DNA of 64,000 bases, from assembly GCF_009827655.1 (NCBI RefSeq), contig NZ_WTYV01000001.1, positions 744,001 to 808,000 of the forward strand, written 5' to 3'. The position numbers and the translations under genes were made by a program. The notes under the pieces are model-generated. The model was given only the letters and a program-made list of their open reading frames with translations. It did not search any database and had not been told where the DNA came from. This document shows, in pieces, positions 1,536 to 45,010 of the stretch; positions within the stretch are counted from its first letter, which is position 1, and each line of letters starts with the position of its first letter. Origin of the DNA: Alteraurantiacibacter buctensis (lineage in GTDB: Bacteria > Pseudomonadota > Alphaproteobacteria > Sphingomonadales > Sphingomonadaceae).

Positions 1536-2695
1536 GCGTCGACACGTTCCTGCCCCTCTCGCGCCGCGCGGCGCTGGCCGGCATGGCCGCAATGCCGGTG
1601 GCCGGGGCGCTGGCCGGTGCGGTTCCGGCCATGGCGCAGGGCACCGCCGCAGGCAGCCTCAACGCCGCGGCGCAGCGCACCGGGCGGCGCTGGGGCAGCG
1701 CGGTTGCCTCGAACGATCGCGGCGTTGGCGGATCGGTGCAGAACCCCCGCTATGCCCGGGTGGTGCTGGACGAATGCGGCATCGTGGTGCCGGAAAACGA
1801 GATGAAGTGGCAGGCCACCCGGCCCGGCCCCGAGGCGTTCGATTTCGCGCGCATGGATGCCATCGCCCGCTGGGCGATGCAGAACGGGGTGGCGCTGCGC
1901 GGCCACACCCTGCTGTGGCATCGCCCGCAGTGGTTTCCCGAATGGCTCAACACCTACGATTACGGCGCCAATCCGGTGCGGGAAGCGGAGCGGCTGCTGA
2001 CCACGCACATCCGCACCGTTACCGATCGCTATCGCGGGCAGATCACCAGCTATGACGTGGTCAACGAAGCGATCGACCACGATACCAACGGCACGCTGGC
2101 CACCAGCCTAAGCCGCGCGATGGGCAGCCCGGAGGCGGTGATCGACTTCGCCTTCCACACCGCGCGCGAGCAACTGCCCACCGGCGAGCTGGTCTATAAC
2201 GACTACATGAGCTGGGAGCCGGACCACCGCAACCACTGCAATGCCGTGCTGCGCCTGCTGGAAGGCTTCCGCCGCCGCAACGTGCCAGTCGACGCGCTGG
2301 GCATCCAGTCGCACATCGAGATGTTCGCGCTCGATCCCGCCACCGGCAGCGGTCGCTACCTGGAAGCCGAATGGCGCCGTTTCTTGGATGAGGTGGTGGC
2401 CATGGGCTACAAGCTGCTGATCACCGAGTTCGACGTGAAGGACAAGGCCCTGCCCGGCGCCATCGCCGTGCGCGACGAGCGGGTGGCCGATTATACCCGC
2501 CGCTATTTCGACGTGATGCTGGACTATCCGCAACTGACCGACGTGCTCGCCTGGGGCATGGTCGACCGCTACAACTGGCTGCAGGGCTTCGCGCCCCGCG
2601 AGGACGGGCTGGAAGTGCGCGGCACGCCCTATTCCAGTTACTACCAGGCCAAGCCCATGCGCGAGGCGATTGCCGCCGCCTTCGCCGCCGCCTGA
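1532..2695 (+). CDS. GH10 endo-1,4-beta-xylanase, Tat-exported
   Basis: 387 aa, about the normal length for a single-domain GH10 xylanase. The N-terminus has a twin-arginine signal (SRRAALAG followed by a hydrophobic stretch and AMAQ), so export through Tat to the periplasm is likely. The acid/base Glu sits in DVVNEAID (E179) and the nucleophile Glu in LITEFDVKD (E299), both typical of GH10. It hydrolyses internal beta-1,4 bonds of xylan or imported xylo-oligosaccharides. The start overlaps the GH3 stop (ATGA), so the two are translationally coupled. There is no carbohydrate-binding module. Confidence 0.95.
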   Translation: MSVDTFLPLSRRAALAGMAAMPVAGALAGAVPAMAQGTAAGSLNAAAQRTGRRWGSAVASNDRGVGGSVQNPRYARVVLDECGIVVPENEMKWQATRPGPEAFDFARMDAIARWAMQNGVALRGHTLLWHRPQWFPEWLNTYDYGANPVREAERLLTTHIRTVTDRYRGQITSYDVVNEAIDHDTNGTLATSLSRAMGSPEAVIDFAFHTAREQLPTGELVYNDYMSWEPDHRNHCNAVLRLLEGFRRRNVPVDALGIQSHIEMFALDPATGSGRYLEAEWRRFLDEVVAMGYKLLITEFDVKDKALPGAIAVRDERVADYTRRYFDVMLDYPQLTDVLAWGMVDRYNWLQGFAPREDGLEVRGTPYSSYYQAKPMREAIAAAFAAA

Positions 2696-3242: not shown

Positions 3243-6200
3243 TTAGAACTGGCCGCGGAGAATGAACGAGAACCGGCGATCGTTCATGAAGTAGGAACGA
3301 GGCGCCAGGTCCGCCGGATCACCCGAATAGGATTGCGTGGTCCTGGTCACTTCGTTCAGCAGGTTTACGCCCTGCACACCGATGCGGATATTGCCCGGCA
3401 CGTCGAAGATCTGCGACATGTTGAGGAAGATCGATGCGTCCAGCTGGCCCGTCGGCTCGTTGAAGATCGAGTAGTACGGGAAGATCACGTCCGATGCGGT
3501 CAGCAGGAAGCGCGAGCGCCAGTTGTAGGCGGCGCGCATAGACAGCGGGCCCTGTTCGTAGAACACGGTGGCGTTGATGTTGTGCTTCGAGAGCTGTTCC
3601 AACGGCAGATTGCCCGGCGGCACCGCCGAGTTGTTGGGCACCTGGCCGCCATTCAGGAATGTGTTGGGCAGGCCGCTGCTCTGGATGAAGGTGTAGTTGG
3701 CGGAAGTGCCCAGCCCGCTGAGGAAGCCCGGCAGGAAATCGTAGGTCTGCTGGTAGGCAATCTCGAAGCCCTTGATCTTGCCGGTGCCGTCAAAGTTGGC
3801 GGGGCCGCGCACCGTCACGTTGCGGGTGGCACCCGAACCGTTGGTGATCGTCTCCTGGCGCACACTCTGGTAGAAGAAGTTGTCGATCGACTTGTAGAAG
3901 CCGTTCAGCGTCAACGAGCCGACGGTGTCGAAATACCACTCCAGCGTGGCATCGAACTGCCAGGCCGTCGCCGGGTTCAGCGTGGGATCGCCCGCCGTGC
4001 CGGTGAAATTGCCCGAGGTATCGATGCTGGAGGTGAAGTAGTTGCGGATATAGCCGTTGTCGGGCCGCGTCAGCACCTTGGACCCGGCCAGGCGCATGAT
4101 CAGGTCATCAGTCAGGCCCAGCTTGAGGTTGAGGCTCGGCAACAGGTAGTTGTAGCTGTGGCTCTGGACTACGGGGGTGAAGCTGCCGTCCACGAAGGTC
4201 TGCAGCGCCACATAGGCCGCCTCGCCGATGTTGCAGATGCCGCCGGGCCGTGCGGTGCCGCCGCCCGCCGCCGCCGGACGTGCGCGTTCCGCGCAGCGTA
4301 CGCTGAAGGGATCGGCAATTCCCAGCCCACCCCGGGTGCCGGGGCTGCGGGCGCTGGCCGATTGCACGTCGGTCCGCACCCAGCGCAGGCCGATGTTGCC
4401 ATCCAACCGCAAGCCGTCCGCGCCTTCGGGCGTGCCGAAGCGAACCATGCCGTAAGCCGCCCAGTCGCGCTGTTGCACCTGCTGGATGTCGGACGGGATG
4501 TAGTACGATCCGTCAATGGCGCCTTCGCGCTCGGACAGGGGGTTCCACGAAGGGCTGGCGCCCAGCGCGCGGGCGCGGGCCTGCACGCTCTGGAAGTAGT
4601 CGACCGACCCTGCATAGTCCGAAATCAGCTCGCCGCTGTAATAGAACGCTCCTGGGGGGCCGGGGACGCCGTTACGCCAGAAGTTGTCGAACTCGTAGCG
4701 TCCCTGCCGCCCGTCGCCGGCGGTATCGCCGAAGTTGACCGGACGGCTGCCCGACCACACTTCGCTCAGCATGCCCCAGTTGTAAGTGGAGTAGCGGACA
4801 GTCTGGTCGTTGTTCTGGTAGCGGAAGCCGGTCTTCACGCTGCGGATGAACGAATCCTCGTCGATCTCGTATTCCAGATCGGTGCGGAAAGCATACTGCG
4901 AACCGGTGCTTTCCTCGGCGTGATCCATCGCCGCGCGCCAGAACTGGAAGCGCGGGTCGGTGAAGTATTGCGCGTCGGTGGCGCCAGCCAGATCGGCGCC
5001 GGGCTGCGACCAGGTGTAACCCAGGTACTGCGGCTTGTGCGGTTCGATGATCGGCGCGTTCCCGGTCAGGTCCAGTTCCGAATCGGCAAAGATTGAACCG
5101 AACACGCTGAAGTCCAGGTTCTCCTTGCGCGAGTGCGCATAGTTCATGTCAAACGTAGCGTGCAGACGTTCGGTCATCTGGCTTTCGACGTTGAAGCTGA
5201 CATCGGTATTGGTGATCTCGTCCCGAATCTGGCGGCGGGCCAGCGAGTATTGCGAACCGCCGATCGGCACGAACGGGTTGGTCCCCGGATCACCGCGCCA
5301 GCCGTTGCTGACGTCCACGATGTAGCCGGACTGGAACAGGCCGTTATCGTCATAGGAATAGTTGGTGAAGCCACCCACCGGGCATTGCGCGCGCGGCGGA
5401 GTCTCGTCGTTTGGATCGATCACGCCGTTGCTGTCGATCACGTTCGAGCCGTTGGCGTTCTGCTGGCAGCCGATCGGGAAGGTCGAATATTCCGACAGGT
5501 CGGGCGCGGCCTCGTAGGTGTGCTCGCCCCACGCGTTGGTGGAGTGCGAGCGGATGAACTCCGCCGTCACGCGGGTGTTGCCGTCCAGCGTCTCGAACTG
5601 GGCGGACACCGCCAGGCCATCGCGCTGGCGGTTGTAATCCTGCGTGCGGAACTGGCCGCCCACCGGGGCCACCAGCGAATCGGCATAGTCGGCAAACCCG
5701 TCAGCCCCGGCGGTGCCGGTGTTGCCGCACGCGGCATTGCCAGGCGGCAGGGTGAACTGGTCGGTGTTCGACGGCAGCCGGGTGCGGCAGATCAGGCGAT
5801 CGGTGGTGTTGGCCGCCCGGGCCAGCTCACCATCACGGTTCTGGTAATTGGCGACCTGCAGGCCGTCAGCCCGGCTGAGGATCTGCGAATACGAGCCGGA
5901 AACCAGCAGGCCGAAGGTGCCGGCGCCGGTTTCCCAGGTGTTGCTGAGCAGGCCGGAAAACGAGGGCGACCACTCGCGCGCGAAATCGCCATAGTTGGCC
6001 TCCGCGCTGAAGCCCATGTGGAAGCCCAGGTTGTCCAGCGGCTTGCGGGTGACCAGGTTGACCGTGCCGGCCAGGCCGCCCTCGATCATGTCGGCGGTGG
6101 CGTTCTTGCTGATGATGACCGAGCCGAGCAGTTCGGCCGGCACGTCGGCAAAGTTCAGCGCCTGCCCGCCGACGCCGGCGGCAAAGGCGGTGCGGCCGTT

Positions 6201-6614
6201 GAATTCCGAACGCACGAAGTTGAGGCCGCGGATGACCACGCCCGAGCCTTCCACGCTGAAGTGGTCGGGATCGTTCGAACCGGCGAAGCGGTTGATGGCG
6301 ATGCCGGGCACGCGCTGGAGGGCTTCGGTCACCGAACGGTCAGGCAGGGCGCCGATGTCCTCGGCGGTGATCGCGTCGACCACGGTTTCGCTGTCGCGCT
6401 TGATGTTCTGGGCCGAGGCGAGCGACTGGCGGATGCCGGTCACCACGATCAGGTCGTCCTCGGCGGCCGCTTCCTCGTCCTGCGCCATGGCCGGAACGGA
6501 CAGCAGCAGGCCGCCCAGCACCAGCGCCGAAGCGCCCGAACGCAGCGCGCTGCGAAGTCCGCGAATATCGGTGGTTTGCGACAGATTGCGCGCAGCAGTG
6601 CCCTTGGTTACCAA
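3243..6614 (-). CDS. TonB-dependent receptor, probable xylo-oligosaccharide uptake
   Basis: 1123 aa outer-membrane receptor. The signal peptide ends near PAMA-QD (residue 44), the TonB box DLIVVTGI is at about 54-61, and a plug domain with the ALQRVPGI motif follows. A long beta-barrel ends in the terminal Phe expected of outer-membrane proteins. This large Sphingomonad/Xanthomonad type is known for carbohydrate import. The start is TTG: a strong GGGGAGGGAG site precedes it, and the nearby ATG at 6628 is out of frame. It is divergent from a halogenase operon and close to xylanase genes, so xylan fragments are the inferred cargo. A double LacI-type operator lies just upstream of the ribosome site. 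Confidence 0.93.
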   Translation of the reverse strand: MVTKGTAARNLSQTTDIRGLRSALRSGASALVLGGLLLSVPAMAQDEEAAAEDDLIVVTGIRQSLASAQNIKRDSETVVDAITAEDIGALPDRSVTEALQRVPGIAINRFAGSNDPDHFSVEGSGVVIRGLNFVRSEFNGRTAFAAGVGGQALNFADVPAELLGSVIISKNATADMIEGGLAGTVNLVTRKPLDNLGFHMGFSAEANYGDFAREWSPSFSGLLSNTWETGAGTFGLLVSGSYSQILSRADGLQVANYQNRDGELARAANTTDRLICRTRLPSNTDQFTLPPGNAACGNTGTAGADGFADYADSLVAPVGGQFRTQDYNRQRDGLAVSAQFETLDGNTRVTAEFIRSHSTNAWGEHTYEAAPDLSEYSTFPIGCQQNANGSNVIDSNGVIDPNDETPPRAQCPVGGFTNYSYDDNGLFQSGYIVDVSNGWRGDPGTNPFVPIGGSQYSLARRQIRDEITNTDVSFNVESQMTERLHATFDMNYAHSRKENLDFSVFGSIFADSELDLTGNAPIIEPHKPQYLGYTWSQPGADLAGATDAQYFTDPRFQFWRAAMDHAEESTGSQYAFRTDLEYEIDEDSFIRSVKTGFRYQNNDQTVRYSTYNWGMLSEVWSGSRPVNFGDTAGDGRQGRYEFDNFWRNGVPGPPGAFYYSGELISDYAGSVDYFQSVQARARALGASPSWNPLSEREGAIDGSYYIPSDIQQVQQRDWAAYGMVRFGTPEGADGLRLDGNIGLRWVRTDVQSASARSPGTRGGLGIADPFSVRCAERARPAAAGGGTARPGGICNIGEAAYVALQTFVDGSFTPVVQSHSYNYLLPSLNLKLGLTDDLIMRLAGSKVLTRPDNGYIRNYFTSSIDTSGNFTGTAGDPTLNPATAWQFDATLEWYFDTVGSLTLNGFYKSIDNFFYQSVRQETITNGSGATRNVTVRGPANFDGTGKIKGFEIAYQQTYDFLPGFLSGLGTSANYTFIQSSGLPNTFLNGGQVPNNSAVPPGNLPLEQLSKHNINATVFYEQGPLSMRAAYNWRSRFLLTASDVIFPYYSIFNEPTGQLDASIFLNMSQIFDVPGNIRIGVQGVNLLNEVTRTTQSYSGDPADLAPRSYFMNDRRFSFILRGQF

Positions 6615-6625
6615 AGCTCCCTCCC

Positions 6626-6660
6626 CATGTTAGCGCTACCATTCTATCGCGGTAGCGCTC
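6626..6660. promoter_or_regulatory. Paired LacI-type operators between receptor and halogenases
   Basis: CATGTTAGCGCTACC (6626-6640) and GGTAGCGCTC (6651-6660) form two sites with the core TAGCGCT in the divergent promoter region. The core with central CG matches LacI/GalR-family operators known in Caulobacter and Xanthomonas sugar loci. The first site is only 12 bases from the receptor start, inside its leader. The 15-mer at 6626-6640 recurs exactly in front of the sugar porter. Confidence 0.7.
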
Positions 6661-6762
6661 ACTTCTTTTTCTGCCCCCTGCATATATCCCGATTCCCTCC
6701 TTGGCAAGAGGGCATACATCAGCGTAGGAAAAGCGCAGAAAACAGCGCCTCGGGCGGATGGG

Positions 6763-8343
6763 ATGGTGGCGATGCCTGCAAATGGTAACGATATCACCAG
6801 CGTGGTGATCGTGGGGGGTGGCACGGCCGGGTGGATGGCTGCCGCGGCCCTGTCCAAATACCTCGCCGATGGCCGCCGCCGCTTCACCCTGGTCGAATCC
6901 GATGCCATCGGCACCGTGGGCGTGGGCGAGGCCACGATCCCCCCGATCAAGAGCTTCAACCAGATGCTGGGGATCGACGAGAACGCCTTCCTGCGCGCCA
7001 CGCGCGGCACGTTCAAGCTGGGGATCGAGTTCCGCAACTGGGGCCAGGTGGGCGACCGCTATTTCCATCCCTTCGGCGCCTACGGCCAGGACCTGCACGG
7101 CATCGCCTTCCACCAGTTGTGGCTGCGCGAGCGGGCCCGCAGCGGGGCGGCGGCGGGCGCCATAGGCGACTATTCGATGTGCACCGTGGCCGCCATGCTG
7201 GGCCGCGCCGCGCGCCCTGCCCCCACCGCCCGCTCGCTGGTGTCGCAACTGGCCTATGCCTACCATTTCGACGCCGGCCTCTATGCCACCTTCCTGCGTA
7301 CCCGCGCCGAGGAGCAGGGCACCGTACGCCGCGAGGGCACCATTGCCCGCGTCCACCGGGACGGGGAAAGCGGCGATGTGACCGCAGTGGAACTGGCAGA
7401 CGGCTCGCTGGTGGCAGGCGACCTGTTCATCGACTGCTCCGGCTTTCGCGGCCTGCTGATCGAGGAGACGCTGGGCGCCGGCTATCACGACTGGAGCCAC
7501 TGGCTGCCGATGGACCGGGCGCTGGCCGTGCCCACGGCCAACACCGGCTCGCCCGATCCCTACACCCGGTCCACCGCCCACGGCGCGGGCTGGCAGTGGC
7601 GCATCCCGTTGCAGCACCGCACCGGCAACGGTCACGTGTTTTCCAGCAGCTTCATGGAACGCGACGAGGCGACACGGATCCTGCTGGCCAACCTTGAGGG
7701 CGAGGTGCTGGCAGACCCGCGCGAACTGCGCTTCCTCACCGGCACGCGGGCCAAGACCTGGCACCACAACGTGATCGCGCTGGGCCTGGCATCGGGCTTT
7801 ATCGAGCCGCTGGAGTCCACCAGCATCCACCTCGTCCAGAACGGCATCCAGCGGCTGTTCGCGCTGTTCCCCGACAAGGCGATCAGCCCGGTGGAGCGCG
7901 ACCACTTCAACGAGGGGATGCACGCCGCCTACGAGGACGTGCGCGATTTCATCATCCTGCACTACAAGGCCACTCAGCGCGACGACACGCCGTTCTGGCG
8001 CTATGTCCGCGACATGCCCGTGCCCGATACCCTAACCCGCCGCATGGAGCTGTGGCGCCTGCACGGCCGCGTGTTCCGCGACGATGCCGAGCTGTTCGCC
8101 CTGCCGAGCTGGGTGGCCGTGATGCTGGGGCAGAACCTGTGGCCGCAGCGGCACGATCCCATCGCCGACACGCTCGATCCGGAGCGGGTGGCGGCTCACA
8201 TGGCGCAGATGCGGGCAGACTATCGCGCCACGGCGGAAGCCCTGCCCACGCAGGAGCAGTTCCTGCGCCAGGCCGGCGCCTGGGCGGAGGACGAGGCCGC
8301 GCCGCCAGCGGCCATTCCCGGCTGGAGCTTCGCCGCGCAATGA
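6763..8343 (+). CDS. Flavin-dependent tryptophan-halogenase-like protein 1
   Basis: 526 aa. FAD-binding motif GGGTAGWM is near residue 16 and GVGEATIP follows. The halogenase lysine is K85 in GTFKLGIEF. The WxWxIP family signature is W277-Q-W-R-I-P, and the glutamate region is EPLESTSIH. All residues needed for HOCl- or HOBr-type chemistry are therefore present. Family members oxidise halide with FADH2 and O2 to halogenate indoles, but homologues next to TonB receptors have no established natural substrate. It is the first gene of a tightly overlapping operon with a second halogenase and a JmjC-like protein. An in-frame ATG at 6772 is an alternative start. Function beyond family is inferred. 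Confidence 0.9.
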   Translation: MVAMPANGNDITSVVIVGGGTAGWMAAAALSKYLADGRRRFTLVESDAIGTVGVGEATIPPIKSFNQMLGIDENAFLRATRGTFKLGIEFRNWGQVGDRYFHPFGAYGQDLHGIAFHQLWLRERARSGAAAGAIGDYSMCTVAAMLGRAARPAPTARSLVSQLAYAYHFDAGLYATFLRTRAEEQGTVRREGTIARVHRDGESGDVTAVELADGSLVAGDLFIDCSGFRGLLIEETLGAGYHDWSHWLPMDRALAVPTANTGSPDPYTRSTAHGAGWQWRIPLQHRTGNGHVFSSSFMERDEATRILLANLEGEVLADPRELRFLTGTRAKTWHHNVIALGLASGFIEPLESTSIHLVQNGIQRLFALFPDKAISPVERDHFNEGMHAAYEDVRDFIILHYKATQRDDTPFWRYVRDMPVPDTLTRRMELWRLHGRVFRDDAELFALPSWVAVMLGQNLWPQRHDPIADTLDPERVAAHMAQMRADYRATAEALPTQEQFLRQAGAWAEDEAAPPAAIPGWSFAAQ

Positions 8344-9887
8344 GCGAACAAGGCCACTCCCGCCCCGTTACCCGCATCACCATCGTGGGCGGCGGCACCG
8401 CCGGGTGGATGGCCGCCGCCGCGATCTCGAAAGTGCTGCGCGGCCTGCCCGGCCTGACCATCAGGCTGGTGGAAAGCGAGGCCATCGGCACCGTGGGCGT
8501 GGGCGAGGCGACGATCCCGCAAATCGTGGGCTTCAACCAGCTCCTGGGCATCGACGAAGCCGAATTCGTGCGCGAGACGCACGCCACCTACAAGCTGGGG
8601 ATCGAGTTCGTCGACTGGACGCGACTGGGCCATCGCTACGTCCACCCGTTCGGCACCTATGGCATCGACATGCTGGGGATCGAGTTCCACCACTTCTGGC
8701 TGCGCGGCCTGGCACTGGGCGAGACGGCGGGGCTGGACGACTATTCGATTGGCGCGGTTGCGGCGCGGGCGGGCAGGTATTTCCCGCCCCAGCCCGGACA
8801 GCCCAATTCACCGCTGGCGCGCCTTGCCTATGCCTTCCAGTTCGATGCCGGCCGCTATGGCGCCTACCTGCGGCGGCTGGCCGAGGCGCAGGGCGTGGTG
8901 CGGATCGAAGGGCGCGTGGTCCAGGTCCACCAGCATCCGGAGACCGGCTTCGTCACCGCCGTGCAGATGGAAAATGGCGACATGGTGGATGGCGAGCTGT
9001 TCATCGATTGCTCGGGCTTTCGCAGCCTGCTGCTGGGGGAGGCGCTGGGCGTGCCCTTCATCGACTGGAGCAAGTGGCTGCCGTGCGACCGGGCCGTGGC
9101 CATGCCGTGCAGTTCTGCGGGGCCGGACCAGCCGATCACCCGCAGCACCGCGCGCCCCGCCGGCTGGCAGTGGCGCATCCCCCTGCAGCATCGCATCGGC
9201 AACGGCCACGTCTATGCCAGCGCCTTCCTGGACGATGACGCGGCGCTGGACCTGCTGCTGGCCAACCTTGATGGCCGGCCGCTGGCCGACCCCAACCGGA
9301 TCCGCTTCACTGGCGGCCACCGCGCGCGGTTGTGGGACAGGAACGTGGTGGCCCTGGGCCTGGCGGGCGGCTTCCTGGAGCCGCTGGAATCGACCGCCAT
9401 CCACTTGGTGCAGGCGGGCATCGCCAGGCTGATGGCCTATTTCCCCTCGCTGGACTTTACGCCGAAGGAGATCGACCGCTTCAACGTCGAAACCGCGCGC
9501 GAATACTTGGACATCCGCGATTTCCTGGTGCTGCACTACAAGGCCACGACACGGGACGACAGCGAGTTCTGGAACTATTGCCGCACGCTTGAGCCGCCCG
9601 ATGGCCTGCGCGAGAAGCTGGAGATGTTCCGCAGTTCCGGCCGGGTGATCCGCGAACACAACGAGCTGTTTACCGAGACGAGCTGGCTGTCGGTGATGGC
9701 GGGCCAGGGCATTGTCGCGGGCGGCTGGCACCCTGCGGCGGAGATCCTCGATGAGGGCGAGCTGAAGCGGCGGCTTGGCCACGTGCGCCAGGTGATCGCG
9801 CAGGCCGTGGGCCAGATGCCCACGCAGGAGCAATTCCTGCGCGAGCAGGGCAGCGCCATCGCCCCCGGCCAGCGGATCATGGCGTGA
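8340..9887 (+). CDS. Flavin-dependent tryptophan-halogenase-like protein 2
   Basis: 515 aa, starting at ATG 8340 where ATGA overlaps the stop of halogenase 1. It has GGGTAGWM, GVGEATIP, the catalytic lysine K85 in ATYKLGIEF, WQWRIP and EPLESTAIH, all intact. It is clearly paralogous to the preceding gene along its full length, so the pair probably arose by tandem duplication and then diverged. The frame stays open a further 96 codons upstream but inside halogenase 1, so the ATGA junction is preferred. Natural substrate unknown; expected cofactor partner is a flavin reductase, which is not encoded here. Confidence 0.9.
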   Translation: MSEQGHSRPVTRITIVGGGTAGWMAAAAISKVLRGLPGLTIRLVESEAIGTVGVGEATIPQIVGFNQLLGIDEAEFVRETHATYKLGIEFVDWTRLGHRYVHPFGTYGIDMLGIEFHHFWLRGLALGETAGLDDYSIGAVAARAGRYFPPQPGQPNSPLARLAYAFQFDAGRYGAYLRRLAEAQGVVRIEGRVVQVHQHPETGFVTAVQMENGDMVDGELFIDCSGFRSLLLGEALGVPFIDWSKWLPCDRAVAMPCSSAGPDQPITRSTARPAGWQWRIPLQHRIGNGHVYASAFLDDDAALDLLLANLDGRPLADPNRIRFTGGHRARLWDRNVVALGLAGGFLEPLESTAIHLVQAGIARLMAYFPSLDFTPKEIDRFNVETAREYLDIRDFLVLHYKATTRDDSEFWNYCRTLEPPDGLREKLEMFRSSGRVIREHNELFTETSWLSVMAGQGIVAGGWHPAAEILDEGELKRRLGHVRQVIAQAVGQMPTQEQFLREQGSAIAPGQRIMA

Positions 9888-10891
9888 GCGCGCTGCCCAC
9901 GCCCGCTCCCTTGCGGGAAGTGGCCGGCCCGCTCGACCTTGCCGCCCTGCGCGCCGGGGGCCAGCCGGTGGTGCTGCGCGGCCTGGCAGCGCACTGGCCG
10001 GCCGTGGTCGCCGGGCGGCAGGGGCCGGAAGCGGCGGTGAACTACCTCAAGGCGCAAGGCCCTACCCGCCCCGTCAGTGCCATCGCCGCGCACCCGGACG
10101 AAGGCGGGCGGTTCTTCTATAATGCCGATCTCACGGGCATGAACTTCCAGCGCGGCACCGGCCCGCTGGCCCTGTTCCTGGATGACCTGCTGCGCGCCGC
10201 CCCGATGGAGCACCCGCCCGCGCTGGCCGTGCAATCGGAGGTGGTGAGCGAACTGCTGCCGGCCTTTGCGGCTGAGAACCGGCTGGAGCCGCTGGCCCAC
10301 GTCCCCCCGCGCATCTGGATCGGCAATGCCATCCGCGTGGCCGCGCATTACGATGTGAAGGAGAACGTGGCCGTGTGCATGGCCGGCCGCCGCCGGTTCA
10401 CCCTGTTTCCGCCGGCGCAGATCGCCAACCTCTACCCCGGTCCGCTGGAACAGACCCCGGCGGGCACGCCCGTCTCGATGGTCGACCTCGCCGCGCCGGA
10501 CCTGGCGCGCTACCCGCGCTTTGCCGCAGCCGCCGCCACCGCGCAGGAAGCCGTGCTGGAGCCGGGAGACGCGATCTACATCCCCTATTGCTGGTGGCAC
10601 GCGGTGCAATCGCTGGGCAGCGTCAACGTGCTGGTCAACTACTGGTGGAGCGAGGGGCAGCAGCCCGGCATGGGCGGGGCCTATGATGCGCTGCTGCACG
10701 CGATCCTCTCGCTCAAACACCTGCCGGAAGACCAGCGCACAGTGTGGCGCGAGTGGTTCGATTTCTACGTGTTCGAGACGCAGGGCGATCCCGCCGCACA
10801 CCTGCCCGCCCACGCCCGCGGTGCCCTGGGCCCGCCAGACCCGGCCATGTTTGCCGAGATGCGGCGGATGCTGAAAGGGATGCTGGGTTAA
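9884..10891 (+). CDS. JmjC/cupin-8 domain protein, putative Fe(II)/2OG hydroxylase
   Basis: 335 aa, GTG start overlapping the halogenase stop (GTGA). The central cupin contains AHYDVKEN (HxD metal pair) and, about 90 residues later, YCWWHAVQ with a third candidate ligand, the usual order of JmjC-like peptidyl hydroxylases. Relatives are often found beside tryptophan-halogenase-like genes and TonB receptors in Sphingomonads, Caulobacters and Xanthomonads. It could hydroxylate a protein or peptide side chain, but no substrate is known. Its stop overlaps the convergent gene by 4 bases. Confidence 0.82.
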   Translation: MSALPTPAPLREVAGPLDLAALRAGGQPVVLRGLAAHWPAVVAGRQGPEAAVNYLKAQGPTRPVSAIAAHPDEGGRFFYNADLTGMNFQRGTGPLALFLDDLLRAAPMEHPPALAVQSEVVSELLPAFAAENRLEPLAHVPPRIWIGNAIRVAAHYDVKENVAVCMAGRRRFTLFPPAQIANLYPGPLEQTPAGTPVSMVDLAAPDLARYPRFAAAAATAQEAVLEPGDAIYIPYCWWHAVQSLGSVNVLVNYWWSEGQQPGMGGAYDALLHAILSLKHLPEDQRTVWREWFDFYVFETQGDPAAHLPAHARGALGPPDPAMFAEMRRMLKGMLG

Positions 10892-12393
10892 TACTGCAGG
10901 TCGTCCGTCACCGGGTTGCCGGTCGCCTGCGCCCCGCTGGTGATGAAATCGCGGTAGGGCGGCGCAAAAGCCAGCACCGCCTGCGCCCGCTGGTCGAATG
11001 CGCGACGGGCGGCAGCCGCTTCGGCTGCATCGTGGCTGCCCGCCTGCGCGCCCTTGCCGGCGGGATAGCCCAGCGATAGGAGCAGCGCGGCCATCTCGGC
11101 CGGGGCAAAGGGCGCTTCCTCGCGGAAGGGCACGCGGCCGCGGCGGGTAAACTGGTCAAGCATGTGGGCCACGCTTTCGGGCAGTACTTGCTGGCCGAAC
11201 ACCACCTGCGCCTGCGGAGCGGCATAGTGCAGCGCCAGCACGTCGCGCACGCCAGCCGCCATCAGCGCGGCACGGCGGTTGTATTCGGCCCGCTCCAGCG
11301 GCTCGATCGGGCGACCGGGCAGCATTTCCAGCAGCAGGGCCAACTGGCGGTGGGCCAGGTCCAGGTTCAGGTGAGCCAGCGGCTCGAACCAGGCGGCGGC
11401 ATCGCCCAGCGCGACCACGTTGCCCACCCAGCTTTCGGGGCGGCAACCGGGCGCGATCTCCACCAGCGCCTCGGGCTGCCCGGGCAGGGCGGCGCGGGCC
11501 TCGGCCTCGCCCACCTTTTCGCCATAGCCCAGCACCAGGTGCAGCCCGTCGCGCCCGGCCACGGCGCTCAGCCAGCCCTGCGGGACCAGCGTGGCACGGT
11601 CCTCCAGCGCCAGCAGTGGCTGGCCGGGGCGGGCGTGGAACAGGTGGCGCACCGGCAGGCAGGGCCGCCAGTCATGCCAGGCATCCCCTGCCACCAGCGC
11701 GATCAGCGAACCCGCCGGCCCGCTGCAATCGATGAACAGGTCGGCCTCGATCGCGCCCTGACCGGCCACGGTAATGCTTGCCAGCCCCCCCGCAGCGTCG
11801 CGCAGCGCGCCTTCCAGCGTGCCGGGCACATAGACCACCTGGCGCGCCTGCGCGGCGGCGACCAGCAGGTCACGATAGGCCGGCCCGTTCCACCTGAGGC
11901 CGAAGTCGATACCGTCAAGCGGCGTGGCCTGTCCGGCAGGCGGCACGGCAAAGCGCCCGGCATCGGCCAGCACCTCGGCCAGGGAATGCGCTGCCGAACC
12001 GGCCACACGGCCCCCCGATCCGGCATTGCGCGGCCCGCCGCCCCATTCGCGGGCAAAGCGGGTGCGCGATTGCGCGTCCAGTTCCGCGCCATAGGCCATG
12101 GTGCCCATGCTGTCCGGGGCGGCCCAGCCGAAATAGCGCTGGACCAGCCGGTGGCTGCCACCGGCGCGGGCGACGATCTGCTGCTCGTCCACCCCCAGCC
12201 GCTCGTGCAGGGCGTTGGTGAAGGGCAGCGCGGTCAGCGCCCGGTCGGCATAGGCGCCGGGATCGGCCGGCGTGCCCACCAGCACCACCTGGCAATCGGG
12301 CAGGGTGCGGCGCATGGCCACGGCGGTCAGCACCGCCACCTGGCCGCCGCCAACGATGCATACGCGGCGCAGCCGTTCGCGGGGCGCGCTCAT
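10888..12393 (-). CDS. Degenerate tryptophan-halogenase homologue, likely pseudoenzyme
   Basis: 501 aa. Length and overall layout match the neighbouring halogenases and DLFIDCSG is kept. The nucleotide motif is altered to GGGQVAVL instead of GGGTAGWM. The catalytic lysine position reads SHRLVQRY (Arg82 by eye). No WxWxIP signature can be found, and the EPLEST segment is replaced by EPLAHLN. The frame is intact and coupled to the upstream halogenase by ATGA-type overlap, so it is maintained rather than decaying. It may be a non-halogenating flavoprotein, a partner subunit, or an enzyme with changed chemistry. Confidence 0.75.
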   Translation of the reverse strand: MSAPRERLRRVCIVGGGQVAVLTAVAMRRTLPDCQVVLVGTPADPGAYADRALTALPFTNALHERLGVDEQQIVARAGGSHRLVQRYFGWAAPDSMGTMAYGAELDAQSRTRFAREWGGGPRNAGSGGRVAGSAAHSLAEVLADAGRFAVPPAGQATPLDGIDFGLRWNGPAYRDLLVAAAQARQVVYVPGTLEGALRDAAGGLASITVAGQGAIEADLFIDCSGPAGSLIALVAGDAWHDWRPCLPVRHLFHARPGQPLLALEDRATLVPQGWLSAVAGRDGLHLVLGYGEKVGEAEARAALPGQPEALVEIAPGCRPESWVGNVVALGDAAAWFEPLAHLNLDLAHRQLALLLEMLPGRPIEPLERAEYNRRAALMAAGVRDVLALHYAAPQAQVVFGQQVLPESVAHMLDQFTRRGRVPFREEAPFAPAEMAALLLSLGYPAGKGAQAGSHDAAEAAAARRAFDQRAQAVLAFAPPYRDFITSGAQATGNPVTDDLQY

Positions 12394-13913
12394 ACGGCCG
12401 TGTCCGCCAGCCGCGCGCGTTCGCTGTTGAGGTAGGCCACGTGCCCCGGCATGGCCGCCACCTGCCGCCCGATCTCGTGCCGCAGCCTGTCGAGCGCGCC
12501 CGCCACCCGCGCGGGATCGGGCAGCGCGGTGCGCCCGTCATGCGCCTGCGGCAACATCCCCTGCCCTACATAGACCGCGATCCAGCTGGCATCGTAGAAC
12601 AGGCCATCGGAGTATTTCTCGATCCGCGCGGCGCGCTGCCACAGTTCCAGCTTGCCAGCCAGGCTGTCGGGCACCTGCATGGTACGGACATGGTTCCAGA
12701 ATTCGGAATCGTCGCGCGTGGTGGCGTGATAGTGCAGGATCAGGAAATCGCGCACCCGGTCGTATTCCATGTCGACCAGCCGGTTGAATTCGGCCCTGTC
12801 TCTTGGATCGATCCGCCCACCATCGGGGAACAGCTCGATCAGGTAGGTGATCGCCATCTGCGCCAGGTAGATCGAGGTCGATTCCAGCGGCTCCAGGAAC
12901 CCGCTGGCGAGGCCCACGCCGATGACGTTGTGGCTCCACGAATGCTTGCGGCGGCCCGGGCGGAACTTGAGGATGCGCGGATCGGCCAGCGGATCGCCGT
13001 CAGCCGCCGCCACCAGCGCGCGGCAGGCCTCTTCCTCGCCCAGGTGCGCGCTGGAGAACACATAACCGTTGCCCATGCGATGCTGCAGCGGGATCTGCCA
13101 GCGCCACCCGGCGGGCATGGCCGTGGCAATGGTGTAGGGGCGCAGGTCAGCGGTGCGGTGGGTGCAAGGCATGGCGGCGGCGCGGTCGCACGGTAGCCAG
13201 TGGGTCCAGTCCTCCCAGTCCTCGTCCAGCGTCTGCCCCAGCAGGACCGAGCGGAAGCCGCTGCAATCGACGAACAGGTCACCCTCGATCCGCCTCCCGT
13301 CCTTGAGGACCAGCGCCGTCACGTTGCCACTGGCGGGATCGCGCTCCACGTCCACCACCAGCCCCTCGTGCCGCCGCACGCCCTGGCCCTTTGCATGCTC
13401 GCGCATGAAGGGGCCGAACAGCGTGGCATCGAACTGGTAGGCATAGCCATAGGTGCTGGCCAGGCTGCTATCCTGCGCCGGCGGGGCAAAGCGGTTGGCG
13501 CGCGCCGCGCACACGGCCAACGAGTATTCCCCCAGGTCCGCCGCCAGCCCCTGCCGCCGCATCTCCAGCCAGTAATGGTGGAAGCCGATGCTGCCCACTT
13601 CCTCGCCAAAGCTGCCGAAGGGGTGGATGTAGCTTTCCCCGATGCGGCCGAAATCGCGGAAGTCGATCCCCAGCTTGTAGGTGGCGTGGGTGGCCTTCAT
13701 GAAGGCCGCCTCGTCAATCCCCAGCTTCTCCACGAAGCCGCGGATGTGCGGCAGGGTGGCCTCGCCCACGCCGACGATGCCGATGTCCTCGCTCTCGATC
13801 AGGTCCACGGTGCAGCGGTGCGGCAGCAGGCCGGCCAGGCCCGCAGCCGTCATCCACCCGGCGGTGCCCCCGCCCAGCACGACCACCCGCAACCTTGCCT
13901 GCGCCTCGCCCAT
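12390..13913 (-). CDS. Flavin-dependent tryptophan-halogenase-like protein 3
   Basis: 507 aa with GGGTAGWM, GVGEATLP, the catalytic lysine K80 in ATYKLGIDF, WRWQIP and EPLESTSIY, a canonical set. It is convergent with the halogenase 1-2-JmjC operon and is followed by the degenerate homologue with a 4-base overlap. The sugar porter lies upstream on the same strand, 225 bases away, so all three may share the porter promoter and its LacI-type operator. Substrate unknown. Confidence 0.9.
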   Translation of the reverse strand: MGEAQARLRVVVLGGGTAGWMTAAGLAGLLPHRCTVDLIESEDIGIVGVGEATLPHIRGFVEKLGIDEAAFMKATHATYKLGIDFRDFGRIGESYIHPFGSFGEEVGSIGFHHYWLEMRRQGLAADLGEYSLAVCAARANRFAPPAQDSSLASTYGYAYQFDATLFGPFMREHAKGQGVRRHEGLVVDVERDPASGNVTALVLKDGRRIEGDLFVDCSGFRSVLLGQTLDEDWEDWTHWLPCDRAAAMPCTHRTADLRPYTIATAMPAGWRWQIPLQHRMGNGYVFSSAHLGEEEACRALVAAADGDPLADPRILKFRPGRRKHSWSHNVIGVGLASGFLEPLESTSIYLAQMAITYLIELFPDGGRIDPRDRAEFNRLVDMEYDRVRDFLILHYHATTRDDSEFWNHVRTMQVPDSLAGKLELWQRAARIEKYSDGLFYDASWIAVYVGQGMLPQAHDGRTALPDPARVAGALDRLRHEIGRQVAAMPGHVAYLNSERARLADTAV

Positions 13914-13934
13914 GTCGTTCCCGTGAAACGGAAG

Positions 13935-13964
13935 AGCCGGGAGCGGCGCGATCCGCTCCCGGCT
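13935..13964 (-). terminator. Strong hairpin between porter and halogenase 3
   Basis: Perfect 12-bp stem agccgggagcgg / ccgctcccggct around a 6-base loop. On the minus strand it is followed by only a weak pyrimidine stretch (cttccgttt). It could partly terminate the porter transcript or protect an mRNA end between the porter and halogenase 3. Confidence 0.5.
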
Positions 13965-14138
13965 GCCCGAAACTATTAGTTCAAATCGTGTCGCCAGACT
14001 GTATCGATTTTCAGTTCAGGGGGAGGCGAAAATGGTGACCGGCTGTGACCCGGCGCGCAGCGACCTTCAGGGTCGTGAGCACCGGAAGCGCAGACTGTCG
14101 CCATTTGCAGGCGCCCTGGGCTGAAAGGCGATGCAGTC

Positions 14139-15539
14139 TCAACCGACCATTTCCTCCAGTTCCTTGCCCTTCGTTTCCACGATGAAGCTCTTGACCAGGA
14201 ACCAGCTGATCGCCGCCGCCACGGTATAGACGGCATAGGTGGTGGCGAGGCCAAGGTTGCTGGCCATCGGCGGGAAGCTCTGCACCACCAGGTAGTTGGC
14301 GCCCCATTGCGCCAGGCCTGCCACCGCCAGCGCGGACCCGCGCATCTGGTTGGGGAACATCTCGCCCAGCATCACCCACATCACCGGGCCCCAGCTGAAG
14401 TTGAAGAAGATGACATAGAGGTTGGCCGCCACCAGCGCGATCCATCCGGCACTGTCGCTCAGCGCCAGGTTGCCCGCCGCATCGGTGCCCGCGCCGCTGA
14501 AGGCCCAGGTCATCGCCCCCAGGGTCACCGCCATGCCGGCCGAGCCGATCAGCAGCAGCGGCTTGCGGCCGATCTTGTCTATCAGCAGCAGCGCCGCGAA
14601 CACCGCCGCAATGCTGGCAAGGCCCGAGATGATGTTGCGCTCCAGCGCCACTTCCTCGGACACGCCCGCCAGCCGCCACAGCGTCTCGCCGTAATAGAAG
14701 ATGATGTTGATGCCCACGAACTGCTGGAAGGTGGCCAGCAGGATGCCGGCCCACACGATCGGGCGGAAAATGGTGCCCTTGGCGGTCACGTCGCTCAGGC
14801 TGGGGCGATGATCGGCCGAGAAGCTCGCCTGGATCTCGCCCACCTTGCGGCGCGCTTCTTCGTCACCGAAAATGCGGGTGAGGACCATGGTCGCTTCCTC
14901 GGTCCGGCCGCGGCTGACCAGGTAGCGCGGGCTTTCCGGGATGAAGAACAGCGCCACCAGGAAGACCACAGCGGGCACGGCCTGCGCCAGGTACATCCAG
15001 CGCCACGCCGTGGTGCCGCCGATCTCGCCCAGCGAATCGCCCGCCGCCTGGGCCAGGAAATAGTTGACCACGAAGGCCGCGGTGAGGCCGGAGATGATCA
15101 TCACCTGCTGCACCGTGGTCAGCCGCCCGCGGATGTTGGCCGGGGCCATTTCCGAGATGTAGAGGGGCGAAAGCACGCTGGCCGCGCCCACCGCCATGCC
15201 GCCGGCGAAACGGGCGGCCACGAACATCGTGTGGCTGTCGGTGCTGCCCTGCACCAGTGCGCCGATCACGAACAGCAGCGCGGCCAGGATCATCACCTTG
15301 CGCCGGCCCATGGCATCGGCCAGCGTGCCGGCGAAGAAGGCACCCACCGCGCAGCCGATCAGCAGCGATCCCACGGTGAAGCCGAGCGCCGCCTCGCTCA
15401 GGTTGAACTCTGCCGTCAGGCCGCCCTGCGTGCCGTTGACCGCGCCGCTATCGTACCCGAACAGCAGCCCGCCGATGGTGGCCACGGCCACGATGGCGGA
15501 AATCAGCGCCATGTTGACGCTCTTGGCAGTAGATTCCAT
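14139..15539 (-). CDS. MFS sugar:proton symporter (XylE/GalP family)
   Basis: 466 aa, twelve predicted membrane segments. Sugar-porter signatures are present: FGYDSGAVNG in helix 1, DAMGRRKVM, PESPRYL after helix 6, DKIGRKPLL, and a C-terminal VETKGKELEE. The start at 15539 (MESTAK) is preferred over an upstream in-frame ATG at 15608 because GAGGGGAAG sits at the right distance. The likely substrate is xylose or a short xyloside released by the GH3/GH10 enzymes; this is inferred from context and the shared operator. Confidence 0.9.
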   Translation of the reverse strand: MESTAKSVNMALISAIVAVATIGGLLFGYDSGAVNGTQGGLTAEFNLSEAALGFTVGSLLIGCAVGAFFAGTLADAMGRRKVMILAALLFVIGALVQGSTDSHTMFVAARFAGGMAVGAASVLSPLYISEMAPANIRGRLTTVQQVMIISGLTAAFVVNYFLAQAAGDSLGEIGGTTAWRWMYLAQAVPAVVFLVALFFIPESPRYLVSRGRTEEATMVLTRIFGDEEARRKVGEIQASFSADHRPSLSDVTAKGTIFRPIVWAGILLATFQQFVGINIIFYYGETLWRLAGVSEEVALERNIISGLASIAAVFAALLLIDKIGRKPLLLIGSAGMAVTLGAMTWAFSGAGTDAAGNLALSDSAGWIALVAANLYVIFFNFSWGPVMWVMLGEMFPNQMRGSALAVAGLAQWGANYLVVQSFPPMASNLGLATTYAVYTVAAAISWFLVKSFIVETKGKELEEMVG

Positions 15540-15605
15540 GTCTTCCCCTCTCCCGCGCGGCGCAGATGGCCGGAGCTTGTCCCGCGGGGCCTTTCCGGAC
15601 CCCGT

Positions 15606-15620
15606 CATGTTAGCGCTACC
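15606..15620. promoter_or_regulatory. LacI-type operator upstream of sugar porter
   Basis: CATGTTAGCGCTACC, identical over 15 bases to the site in front of the TonB receptor, 67 bases upstream of the porter ATG. It contains the palindromic core TAGCGCTA. The regulator itself is not in this window. Confidence 0.7.
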
Positions 15621-15713
15621 TTGGCGCGATTCCGGCCCTGGTGCAAGCGGGATTTCGAAAGAGGTAAGCCGCCGGGATTGCTGCGGTTAGCAAAGTGTTG
15701 GGGAATGCCGCTT

Positions 15714-16212: not shown

Positions 16213-17013
16213 ATGGCCACGCTGTCCCGCCTTGCCCGCTGGTGCCGCCGGCTGCCGGCCCTTGTTCCCGCCCTGTTGCTGGCCGCCTGCGCACCGGCCG
16301 GGCCCGAGGCGGGCCCCATGGTGCTGGCCGCCGCCTCCATGCAGGAAGGGCTGGAACAGGCTGCCGATGCCTGGGCCGCGCAGGGCCATGCGCGCCCGGT
16401 GCTGTCCTTTGCCGCCACCTCCGCCCTCGCCCGCCAGGTAGAGGCCGGTGCCCCGGCCGGCCTGCTGGTGAGCGCGGACGAGGCATGGATGGACGAGCTG
16501 GCCGGGCAAGGCCTGATCGTGCCCGCCAGCCGCCGCATCCTGGCCCGCAACCGGCTGGTGCTGGTAGCCCCGGCGGGGCCGGCGGTTGACCTCTACCTGA
16601 CCAGCGGGGTCGACCTTGCCGGCCTGCTGGGGGCGGACGGACGACTGGCCATTGCCGAGCCGGACTCGGTGCCCGCAGGCCGCTATGGCAAGGCCGCGCT
16701 CACCGCGCTGGGTGCCTGGCCGCAGGTGGCGGACCGCCTGGCCGTGGCCGATTCCGTGCGCGGCGCGCTGGCGCTGGTGGCTCGGGGCGAGGCACCGCTG
16801 GGCCTGGTCTATGCCACCGATGCGCGGACCGAACCCCGGGTGCAGGTGGTGGGCACTTTCCCCGCCGCCAGCCACCCGCCGGTGCGCTATCCCATGGCGC
16901 AACTGGCCCGCTCCACCCATCCCGATACCGCCGCCTTTGCCGATTTCCTGGCCGCGCCGGAAGGGCAGGCGATCCTGCTGCGGCTGGGTTTTGCCCGCGC
17001 CGAGGGCCCGTGA
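16213..17013 (+). CDS. modA: Molybdate ABC transporter substrate-binding lipoprotein
   Basis: 266 aa periplasmic binding protein. A lipobox LLLAAC near residue 26 indicates a lipid-anchored form. The mature start VLAAASMQEGLEQAA is the ModA hallmark, with a serine available for oxyanion binding, and YGKAALTALG is the conserved mid-region. First gene of modABC, sitting directly behind the ModE-like box; modB begins at its stop codon. Confidence 0.92.
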   Translation: MATLSRLARWCRRLPALVPALLLAACAPAGPEAGPMVLAAASMQEGLEQAADAWAAQGHARPVLSFAATSALARQVEAGAPAGLLVSADEAWMDELAGQGLIVPASRRILARNRLVLVAPAGPAVDLYLTSGVDLAGLLGADGRLAIAEPDSVPAGRYGKAALTALGAWPQVADRLAVADSVRGALALVARGEAPLGLVYATDARTEPRVQVVGTFPAASHPPVRYPMAQLARSTHPDTAAFADFLAAPEGQAILLRLGFARAEGP

Positions 17014-17711
17014 CCGGCTGGCTGTCTCCCGCCGAATGGGCGGTGGTGGCGCTGTCCTTGAAAGTCAGCCTGCTGGCCATCGCCCTCACTCTGCCGCTGG
17101 CCTTTGCGCTGGCCTGGGTGCTGGCGCGCACCCGCCTGCCGGGCCGCGTGCTGCTGGATGCGCTGGTCCACCTGCCGCTGGTGCTGCCCCCGGTGGTGAC
17201 CGGCTGGCTGCTGCTGCTGGCATTCGGGCGCAACGGGCCGGTGGGCGGCTGGCTCGAGGCGACGTTCGGCATCAGCGTGATGTTTCGCTGGACCGGCGCC
17301 GCGCTGGCCGCCGGGATCATGGCCCTGCCGCTGATGGTACGGGCGATCCGCCTGTCGCTGGAGGCGGTGGACCGGCGGCTGGAAGGCGTGGCCCGCACGC
17401 TGGGCGCGCGGCCGTGGTGGGTTTTCACCACGATCACCCTGCCGCTGTGCCTGCCCGGCGTGCTGGCCGCCACGGTGCTGGGCCTGGCCCGCTCGCTCGG
17501 CGAGTTCGGGGCCACGATCACCTTCGTCTCCAACATTCCGGGCGAAACGCGCACCCTGCCGCTGGCGATCTACACCGCACTGCAGGTGCCCGGCGGCGAA
17601 CAGGCGGTGACGCGGCTGGCGCTGGTTTCGGTGGCGCTGTCGCTGGCCGCCCTGCTGGCCAGCGAGTGGCTGACGCGCCGCCAGCGCGGAAGGGGCAGCG
17701 ATGGCCTTTGA
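17010..17711 (+). CDS. modB: Molybdate ABC transporter permease
   Basis: 233 aa, five to six hydrophobic helices. The EAA-type coupling loop RTLGARPWWVFTTITLPLCLPGV is followed by LGEFGATITFVSNIPGETRTLPLAIY, characteristic of ModB. GTG start overlaps the modA stop (GTGA), and its end overlaps modC by 11 bases. It forms the inner-membrane channel for molybdate. Confidence 0.95.
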   Translation: MTGWLSPAEWAVVALSLKVSLLAIALTLPLAFALAWVLARTRLPGRVLLDALVHLPLVLPPVVTGWLLLLAFGRNGPVGGWLEATFGISVMFRWTGAALAAGIMALPLMVRAIRLSLEAVDRRLEGVARTLGARPWWVFTTITLPLCLPGVLAATVLGLARSLGEFGATITFVSNIPGETRTLPLAIYTALQVPGGEQAVTRLALVSVALSLAALLASEWLTRRQRGRGSDGL

Positions 17712-18324
17712 CGTGGACCTGGCCGTGGCGCGCGGGGGCCGCCAGATCGCCGTGCGTTTCGAAACGCAAGCCCGCGTGGTCTCGCTGTTCGGCCCCTCGG
17801 GCGCAGGCAAGACCAGCGTGCTCGACATGGTGGCCGGCCTGCTGCGCCCCGCTGCCGGGCACGTGCGGGTGGATGGCGAGACGCTGTTCGATGCCGCACA
17901 GGGAATCGCCCTGCCCCCCGAGCGGCGCGGCGTGGGTTACGTGCCGCAGGATGCCCGGCTGTTCCCGCACATGAACGTGCGCGACAACCTGCTGTATGGC
18001 TGGCGGCTGACCGCGCCCGCGCGGCGCTGGCTTGCGCTGGAGGAGGCGCTGGACCTGCTGGGCATCGGCCACCTGCCGGATCGCCGGCCCGCCACGCTGT
18101 CGGGCGGCGAGGCGCAGCGGGTGGCGCTGGGCCGCGCGCTGCTGGCCGGGCCACGCGTGCTGCTGCTGGACGAGCCGCTCGCCTCGCTCGACCGCGCGCG
18201 GCGCGAGGAAATCATGGCTATGCTGGAACGCATCCGGGATGACCTGAAGATCCCGATCATCCACGTCAGCCATGACCGGGCCGAGGTGGACCGGCTGGGC
18301 GGCCTGGTGGTGGAGATGGGCTAG
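17701..18324 (+). CDS. modC: Molybdate ABC transporter ATPase, short form
   Basis: 207 aa. Walker A GPSGAGKTS (residues 31-39), signature LSGGEAQR, Walker B VLLLDEP and the His-loop HVSHD are all present. ModC proteins are usually about 350 aa with a C-terminal molybdate-binding TOBE/MOP domain; here the protein stops right after the ATPase domain, so the regulatory domain is missing. Convergent with modE, sharing CTAG at the stops. Confidence 0.92.
   Translation: MAFDVDLAVARGGRQIAVRFETQARVVSLFGPSGAGKTSVLDMVAGLLRPAAGHVRVDGETLFDAAQGIALPPERRGVGYVPQDARLFPHMNVRDNLLYGWRLTAPARRWLALEEALDLLGIGHLPDRRPATLSGGEAQRVALGRALLAGPRVLLLDEPLASLDRARREEIMAMLERIRDDLKIPIIHVSHDRAEVDRLGGLVVEMG

Positions 18325-28601: not shown

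Positions 28602-28605
<4 letters not shown>
28285..28605 (+). CDS. DUF2218 protein embedded in the lig operon
   Basis: 106 aa, GTG start overlapping the ligJ stop, and its own stop overlaps the ligA start. Small alpha/beta protein with YIQQLVSHWGHK, CVMTAHNGGIGITLTT and the conserved VVEKHIDRFAFRE ending of DUF2218. The family is often linked to siderophore or metal loci but has no established biochemical function. Its place between ligJ and ligA with overlaps on both sides suggests it is made in step with the iron-dependent dioxygenase. Confidence 0.75.
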
Positions 28606-29943
<1,338 letters not shown>

Positions 29944-44997: not shown

Positions 44998-45010
44998 GGT
45001 AGCGCTATCA
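44998..45010. promoter_or_regulatory. LacI-type operator upstream of DUF418 pair
   Basis: GGTAGCGCTATCA, with the TAGCGCTA core shared with the sites at 6626-6660 and 15606-15620. It sits 21 bases upstream of the DUF418 start. Confidence 0.6.

Follow-up and report, generated by a model that had tools for sequence, protein, structure and literature searches.

Why should genes for flavin-dependent halogenases lie in a bacterial locus for sugar uptake, and what would their products modify? The question is raised by a stretch of Alteraurantiacibacter buctensis DNA (64,000 nt; contig NZ_WTYV01000001.1, positions 744,001 to 808,000; 'the window' below means this whole stretch), in which positions 3243–15608 hold a TonB-dependent receptor of the TIGR01782 subfamily, three flavin halogenases, a Cupin_8 oxygenase, a degenerate halogenase homologue without the catalytic lysine (Lys) and a sugar porter, with gene placement and identities as an initial annotation of this DNA had given them. 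The surrounding locus is a xylan utilisation locus holding two receptor–halogenase groups. Judged by its recurrence, the Lys-less homologue is a conserved component of the halogenase array, a point that is new here, so that the label 'degenerate homologue' of the initial annotation undersells it. We tentatively propose, at somewhat less than an even chance, that the cassette is an ancient accessory unit in TonB-dependent sugar uptake, retained by vertical descent, which would carry out cytosolic oxidative tailoring of one of the uptake proteins, possibly the receptor. The cassette contains the following genes.

3243–6614, minus strand: TonB-dependent receptor, TonB-Xanth-Caul subfamily (NCBIfam profile TIGR01782, 630.7 bits), 1123 amino acids (aa)
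6763–8343, plus strand: H1, flavin-dependent halogenase, array class 3 (Pfam Trp_halogenase, 642 bits; Lys, WQWRIP and EPLES intact)
8337–9887, plus strand: H2, flavin-dependent halogenase, array class 4 (Trp_halogenase, 614.7 bits; Lys, WQWRIP and EPLES intact)
9884–10891, plus strand: putative Fe(II)/2-oxoglutarate oxygenase (Cupin_8, 218 bits; JmjC_2, 27.8 bits; HYD...WWH aligned to FIH)
10888–12393, minus strand: pseudo-halogenase (Lys-less), array class 2 (Trp_halogenase, 171.3 bits; confident halogenase-like model)
12390–13913, minus strand: H3, flavin-dependent halogenase, array class 1 (Trp_halogenase, 596.2 bits; Lys, WRWQIP and EPLES intact)
14139–15608, minus strand: sugar porter of the major facilitator superfamily (TIGR00879, 354.2 bits, above cut-off)

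The H1, H2 and Cupin_8 genes overlap at their ends on the plus strand (the H2 start lies over the H1 stop, and the Cupin_8 start over the H2 stop), and the receptor gene is divergent from H1. On the minus strand the H3 stop overlaps the start of the pseudo-halogenase gene, with the porter upstream of both.

H1, H2 and H3 all retain the catalytic Lys, the WxWx[IV]P motif and Glu-Ser of EPLES in a residue alignment, the check on Lys and Glu being one that the initial annotation had proposed. Gene 10888–12393 departs from this pattern, with Lys replaced by Arg, WxWxIP lost and EPLES changed to EPLAH, so it is not classed as a halogenase; it retains the GGG, DCSG and GD motifs. Among 82 aligned homologues, all 62 with scores over 560 bits have Lys, WxWx[IV]P and Glu-Ser intact, and all 12 at 383–441 bits keep Lys, both tryptophans (Trp) and Glu; the eight low-scoring ones comprise six with Arg for Lys, one with a gap there and one fragment. 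Seven genomes have a second, divergent halogenase (383–441 bits, mostly EPLEA for EPLES) 7–8 kb from a receptor, for example at L011:17264-18769. Against solved structures, H1 scores 517.4 bits with the Pseudoalteromonas enzyme 9luq, 497.1 with Xcc4156 and 490.7 with BrvH, and is thus nearer to this type (491–517 bits) than to free-Trp halogenases (at most 308 bits among those listed). By sequence, H1–H3 are catalytically intact flavin-dependent halogenases of the BrvH/Xcc4156 type (PF04820). Weak matches of the QhpG profile (NF049967) to H2 (21.6 bits) and H3 (32.4 bits), far under its cut-off of 240 bits, and of the LodB profile to H1, likewise far under cut-off, point the same way as a peptide-type substrate, short of proving one; neither H1 nor the Lys-less gene matches QhpG at E below 0.001.

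The link between halogenases and receptors was followed across 39 genomes of the family, 26 of which have a match over the Trp_halogenase cut-off; 24 were used, G001 and G005 being left out for having only weak matches. In these 24 genomes, 73 of 84 homologues lie within 10 kb of one of 82 above-cut-off TIGR01782 receptors, and such a receptor is found at most 2.5 kb from 40 of 51 halogenase clusters, where 0.64 would be expected under uniform placement, which bears out the co-occurrence that the initial annotation had suggested checking. The receptor profile found nothing in ten stretches with unlinked halogenases, in which Pfam then gave receptor domains in four large frames; hence a further four of the remaining 11 clusters (L098, L101, L104 and L105) have a gene with a TonB-receptor or outer-membrane barrel domain within 2 kb, and 40 of 51 is a lower bound because the profile misses other receptor subfamilies. 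The loci are of several types, namely starch (glycoside hydrolase (GH) families GH13 and GH97), GH16/GH3, xylan (with three or four homologues) and SapC/Cupin_8, the GH13, GH97, GH16, GH3 and LacI labels having been given first by eye and then confirmed with Pfam on representatives. Across the starch, GH16/GH3 and xylan loci the receptor is the most constant neighbour. SapC is present in 24 of 24 halogenase-bearing genomes, and five of 30 SapC matches have a listed halogenase homologue no more than 5 kb away. Separately, two genomes of the genus to which the window belongs each carry a halogenase with like neighbours, and in the stretches fetched the profile found no receptor there (G000:C22:51378-52754 and G012:C1:238042-239433).

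Linked receptors cluster together on a tree of 81 receptors, with four label changes compared with 27.3 in shuffles. Moreover, 15 of the 39 genomes were taken as being without a true halogenase; ten of them carry 26 TIGR01782 receptors (E below 1e-90), of which 20 were fetched, and none of these 20 falls inside the three main linked clades (FastTree, 83 rows). Two mixed groupings occur at forks with support below 95: G025 C22, which is unlinked although its genome bears a halogenase, stands next to a linked receptor, and L200, from a halogenase-less genome, groups with one linked row on a long branch. The presence of a halogenase thus marks certain lineages of receptors, yet starch loci can do without it. 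In four genomes of other families in the class, the halogenase was the only gene labelled in three of four stretches (by references and receptor profile), and in the fourth it stood among sugar genes.

How constant is the four-member array itself? A profile of five Lys-less proteins was scanned against a species-genome collection, and the best 80 of at least 544 confirmed relatives fell in 79 loci; the Lys-less homologue was present in 57 of these 79, in a scan whose design favours this protein, and exactly three intact halogenases accompany it in 53 of the 57. A receptor is labelled in 54 of the 57 Lys-less loci and Cupin_8 in 48, and a receptor profile finds a receptor in 66 of all 79 loci; of the other 13, three are contigs under 8 kb. 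Hosts of the array include Erythrobacteraceae, Sphingomonas, Caulobacterales and Hyphomonadaceae, and within the genus it is also present in Alteraurantiacibacter aquimixticola SSKS-13 (L113). The replacement of Lys varies across the 57 loci (Arg in 44, Ala in 7, Ser in 4, Gln and His in one each). At L162 and L167 the gene at the Lys-less position retains Lys together with WRWRIP or WLWRIP, yet EPLES is gone; this resembles an intermediate stage in the loss of catalytic residues.

In a tree of 106 homologues, the H3 class (26 rows, support 100), the H1 class (20 rows, 97) and the H2 class (26 rows, 97) are distinct, and each contains Caulobacterales or Hyphomonadaceae members besides Sphingomonadales; the H1-position genes of L160, L162, L165 and L167 branch just outside the H1 class. 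We read the intact genes as separate orthologous classes shared across orders, which argues for three non-redundant steps and agrees with the initial annotation in requiring more than one modification. In the same tree the Lys-less genes have long branches and are scattered over three or more groups, so that array position is the main ground for assuming a single origin. The ratio of nonsynonymous to synonymous divergence (dN/dS) of the Lys-less gene, computed from simple-count dN and dS with dS partly saturated, is 0.34, 0.50, 0.43 and 0.30 between the window and four relatives, compared with 0.10–0.29 for H1–H3, that is, 1.5 to 3 times that of H1–H3 in matching comparisons. On these ratios, the Lys-less gene is evidently under purifying selection. 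The nearest structures to the model of its protein (predicted local distance difference test (pLDDT) score of 87.6) are BrvH and Xcc4156.

The Cupin_8 gene has the protein hydroxylase FIH (E 1.7e-18), JMJD5 and JMJD7 as its best solved relatives, and its AHYD and WWH motifs align to FIH at positions which we take to be the FIH iron ligands, giving an HxD...H set. The initial annotation had made this JmjC partner part of its case for a multi-step modification; the partner is labelled in most Lys-less loci, as counted above, but is not obligatory, with no label in any of 14 starch-like or seven GH16-like loci. At L101:9932-11539, a tetratricopeptide repeat (TPR) protein with a 2-oxoglutarate-Fe(II) oxygenase domain (PF13759) lies between halogenase and receptor, with cluster mates in L103 and L105; this oxygenase is of a family other than Cupin_8, and thus the pairing of oxygenase and halogenase arose more than once.

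In our proposal, the cassette proteins, in which no signal peptide is apparent by eye, would work in the cytosol. For the flavin halogenase family, formation of hypohalous acid from FADH2, O2 and halide is established; H1–H3 would, with FADH2 and O2, brominate or chlorinate electron-rich indole groups, the three enzymes acting at different sites, with Fe(II)/2-oxoglutarate hydroxylation by the Cupin_8 protein alongside. The pseudo-halogenase would serve as a docking or regulatory subunit, or as a hydroxylase, and not as a halogenase. The substrate would most likely be a protein accompanying the receptor, with the receptor precursor, modified before export, as first choice, since the linkage would make the receptor the simplest account. 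A recurring array beside one receptor narrows the search for the substrate to a few proteins in culturable bacteria, and a halogenase homologue without catalytic residues yet kept across orders is itself unusual.

Several observations weigh against this proposal. For seven of the 51 clusters no receptor was found within 2.5 kb: two belong to the genus of the window and have like surroundings, two are in sugar loci 17.6–17.7 kb from the nearest listed receptor, and of the remaining three one has LacI- and oxygenase-type neighbours, one is in a poorly called stretch and one was not fetched. Conversely, a halogenase lies within 2.5 kb of 40 of the 82 subfamily receptors, leaving 42 without one. 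Locus L211 (G001:C4:568500-588000) is a starch locus with GH97, GH13, receptor, LacI and transporter labels and no halogenase; its receptor branches just outside the linked starch clade, and this natural halogenase-less locus offers a comparison. Since JMJD5 and JMJD7 also match the Cupin_8 protein, its likeness to FIH says little about the substrate. Nor do the receptor sequences single out a target: the aligned core of 63 receptors contains no single Trp diagnostic of linked receptors, and an excess of Trp conservation in linked clades was not shown, the invariant fraction being 0.46 in the GH16 type and 0.41 in the xylan type but 0.58 in an unlinked clade of like identity, with 0 to 0.17 in unlinked groups of lower identity and 0.11 in the starch type.

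A narrower version, which we consider quite unlikely, is that the halogenases brominate or chlorinate a loop Trp of the receptor precursor before export (Trp613 and Trp620 in the window, a Trp-Gly site in the starch type), the Lys-less paralogue being a receptor-specific adaptor. Both Trp613 and Trp620 are present in all 54 receptors that adjoin three or more halogenase homologues, and they stand at the start of a long stretch, 609–709, between two barrel strands (model pLDDT 73.7, moderate confidence), which by our reading of strand order may be extracellular. The two residues would also be conserved if their sole role were sugar binding, and modification was not favoured by the tests of conservation. 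A [ND].?WG motif occurs in 59% of linked and 23% of other receptors (n=83), with only four independent contrasts on starred branches, so that no test is possible. L211 lacks the one Trp that at least 15 of the 16 linked starch receptors share; 41 of 154 such columns differ too, so this carries little weight. A fold search with the receptor gave only generic TonB receptors (query TM-score (TMq) 0.39–0.44 among the 50 matches listed), and a sequence search against the PDB gave no match. If the receptor were indeed the substrate, the result would be a halogenated outer-membrane transporter, and TonB-linked halogenases would gain their substrate.

Could the Lys-less paralogue instead be a working flavin monooxygenase, a hydroxylase similar to QhpG, and no pseudoenzyme? 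We regard this as somewhat unlikely. Fourteen of 24 listed copies have GD where halogenases have GL, a DCSG-type motif is widely kept, and the model of the window protein is confident and halogenase-like; however, GD is missing in the other ten copies, the glycine motif is broken in several, and the Lys-less protein, which evolves fast, matches no NCBIfam profile, that of QhpG among them, at E below 0.001.

A different answer for the whole cassette, and in our view an unlikely one, is that the enzymes make a diffusible halogenated indole-like signal or deterrent during feeding, the receptor linkage being merely co-regulation with polysaccharide use. The cassette promoters do carry the operator of the sugar locus, and some clusters lie in sugar loci without a close receptor. 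Free indole is brominated by BrvH, but the low activity on indole made the BrvH authors doubt that it is the natural substrate (PMC5945002). Three conserved classes, a Lys-less member and tight receptor linkage exceed the needs of one indole halogenation.

The initial annotation had considered modification of a receptor, a secreted peptide or an aromatic group of arabinoxylan; the TonB linkage, catalytic residues, operator and multi-step character on which it drew have held, and the aromatic target is not supported; a receptor or a peptide may be the target. It is decidedly doubtful that the enzymes work on a small aromatic molecule, such as feruloyl or coumaroyl groups from arabinoxylan, which enters or is set free along with the glycan. 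Genes for the alpha subunit of protocatechuate 4,5-dioxygenase and the beta subunit of a class III extradiol dioxygenase do lie at 28605–29940 of the window, about 15 kb from the cassette, and BrvH is active on free indole in vitro (PMC5945002). However, the same halogenase type adjoins receptors of starch (GH13/GH97) and GH16/GH3 loci, which argues against ferulate or any other xylan-specific target, and ferulate was rejected on this ground as the main explanation. To our knowledge, glycans of these starch and GH16/GH3 loci carry no ferulate. No feruloyl esterase was noticed in the cassette, although no search was aimed at one. Finally, decay of the Lys-less paralogue as a functionless duplicate is highly improbable, for although its dN/dS exceeds that of H1–H3 in all four comparisons and shortened forms (455 and 377 aa in two genomes) and a copy in two pieces (L142) exist, its open frame is retained beside three intact halogenases in several families with Lys replaced variously.

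The operators and the flanking glycosidase genes are as follows.

12–1535, plus strand: GH3 glycosidase, whose 5′ part precedes the window (profile match)
1532–2695, plus strand: GH10 gene, xylanase family (profile match)
6627–6663, no strand assigned: LacI-type operator sites between receptor and H1 (exact site at 6628, site with two mismatches at 6651)
15606–15623, no strand assigned: LacI-type operator before the porter (exact site at 15608)

The initial annotation had given both promoters a common LacI-type operator, and exact copies of TGTTAGCGCTACC are indeed found at 6628, in the gap between receptor and H1, and at 15608, before the porter. Allowing up to two mismatches, TGTTAGCGCTACC gives five hits in the window compared with 0.77 expected (one of 100 shuffles reached that number), and the contig stretch upstream of the window (L009) has six such hits compared with 0.20 expected, with none of 200 shuffles as high; since the operator reads almost alike on either strand, as a near palindrome, one pair of the window hits and two pairs of those in L009 each represent a single site counted twice. 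Taken by itself, the 12-base core GTTAGCGCTANC is not rare genome-wide (five matches, and five for a reversed control). No operator was found directly before 13913, the H3 start, and from gene order H3 and the Lys-less gene are presumably transcribed from the porter promoter; a porter is labelled in 35 of the 57 Lys-less loci, with the order porter, halogenase, Lys-less gene where that arrangement occurs. Another operator-like match, with one mismatch, is at 44998–45010 of the window, distant from the cassette.

The GH3 and GH10 genes are on the far side of the receptor, and L009, upstream of the window, contains a GH67 gene along with a second receptor, which is accompanied by SapC, Cupin_8 and one further halogenase. 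Near-identical operator sites flank this second receptor and precede a LacI-type gene. In the LacI-type regulator that precedes the xylan locus, the DNA-binding and sugar-binding domains are split over two overlapping frames (L009:5462-6584; G000:C10:730462-731584), which may reflect a sequencing error or a genuine frameshift. The porter scores 364.7 bits with the XylE model, under its cut-off of 608. By the porter end of the locus, at 16213–18704, lie a ModA gene (above cut-off) and ModC- and ModE-like genes (under cut-off).

Sugar regulons described in Xanthomonas, Caulobacter and Alteromonadales include genes similar to SapC, JmjC and halogenases. The locus resembles the carbohydrate utilisation (CUT) loci of Xanthomonas campestris, which combine a TonB receptor, a sugar transporter, a degradative enzyme and a LacI-type regulator; the main text of that paper has no words beginning with 'halogen', 'SapC' or 'tryptophan' (PMC1790865). 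In our locus a TonB receptor, sugar transporter, glycosidase and regulator likewise stand together, the LacI-type regulator being the one split over two frames. With FIH, JMJD5 and JMJD7 the Cupin_8 gene has HYD...WWH in common, and only about 110 residues align to FIH. QhpG, which dihydroxylates a peptidyl Trp (PMC7876137), is similar to H2 and H3 only by weak profile similarity, and unlike QhpG, H1–H3 have intact halogenation motifs. Sponge-associated Hyphomonadaceae have two to four tandem halogenases with BrvH as the nearest characterised enzyme, in a paper whose main text does not contain 'TonB' and in which no mention of a degenerate member was found (PMC7313196). As far as the accessible texts go, this type of halogenase, the uncertainty over its substrate and the occurrence of tandem copies have already been published; in the open-access literature, most subscription journals being outside this scope, we found no description of a receptor-linked halogenase array with a conserved inactive member.

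The closest parallels are BrvH of Brevundimonas BAL3 and Xcc4156 of Xanthomonas campestris, which have the same motifs as H1–H3 and are among their best solved relatives. The natural substrates of both are called unknown (PMC5945002, PMC7336383), an open active site and possible peptide substrates have been proposed for both (PMC7336383), and a second halogenase gene adjoins brvH (PMC5945002). 'TonB' is absent from the main texts of both papers (PMC5945002, PMC7336383), and unlike either system, the cassette described here combines three intact halogenase classes with a fourth, Lys-less member and an oxygenase, all next to a receptor.

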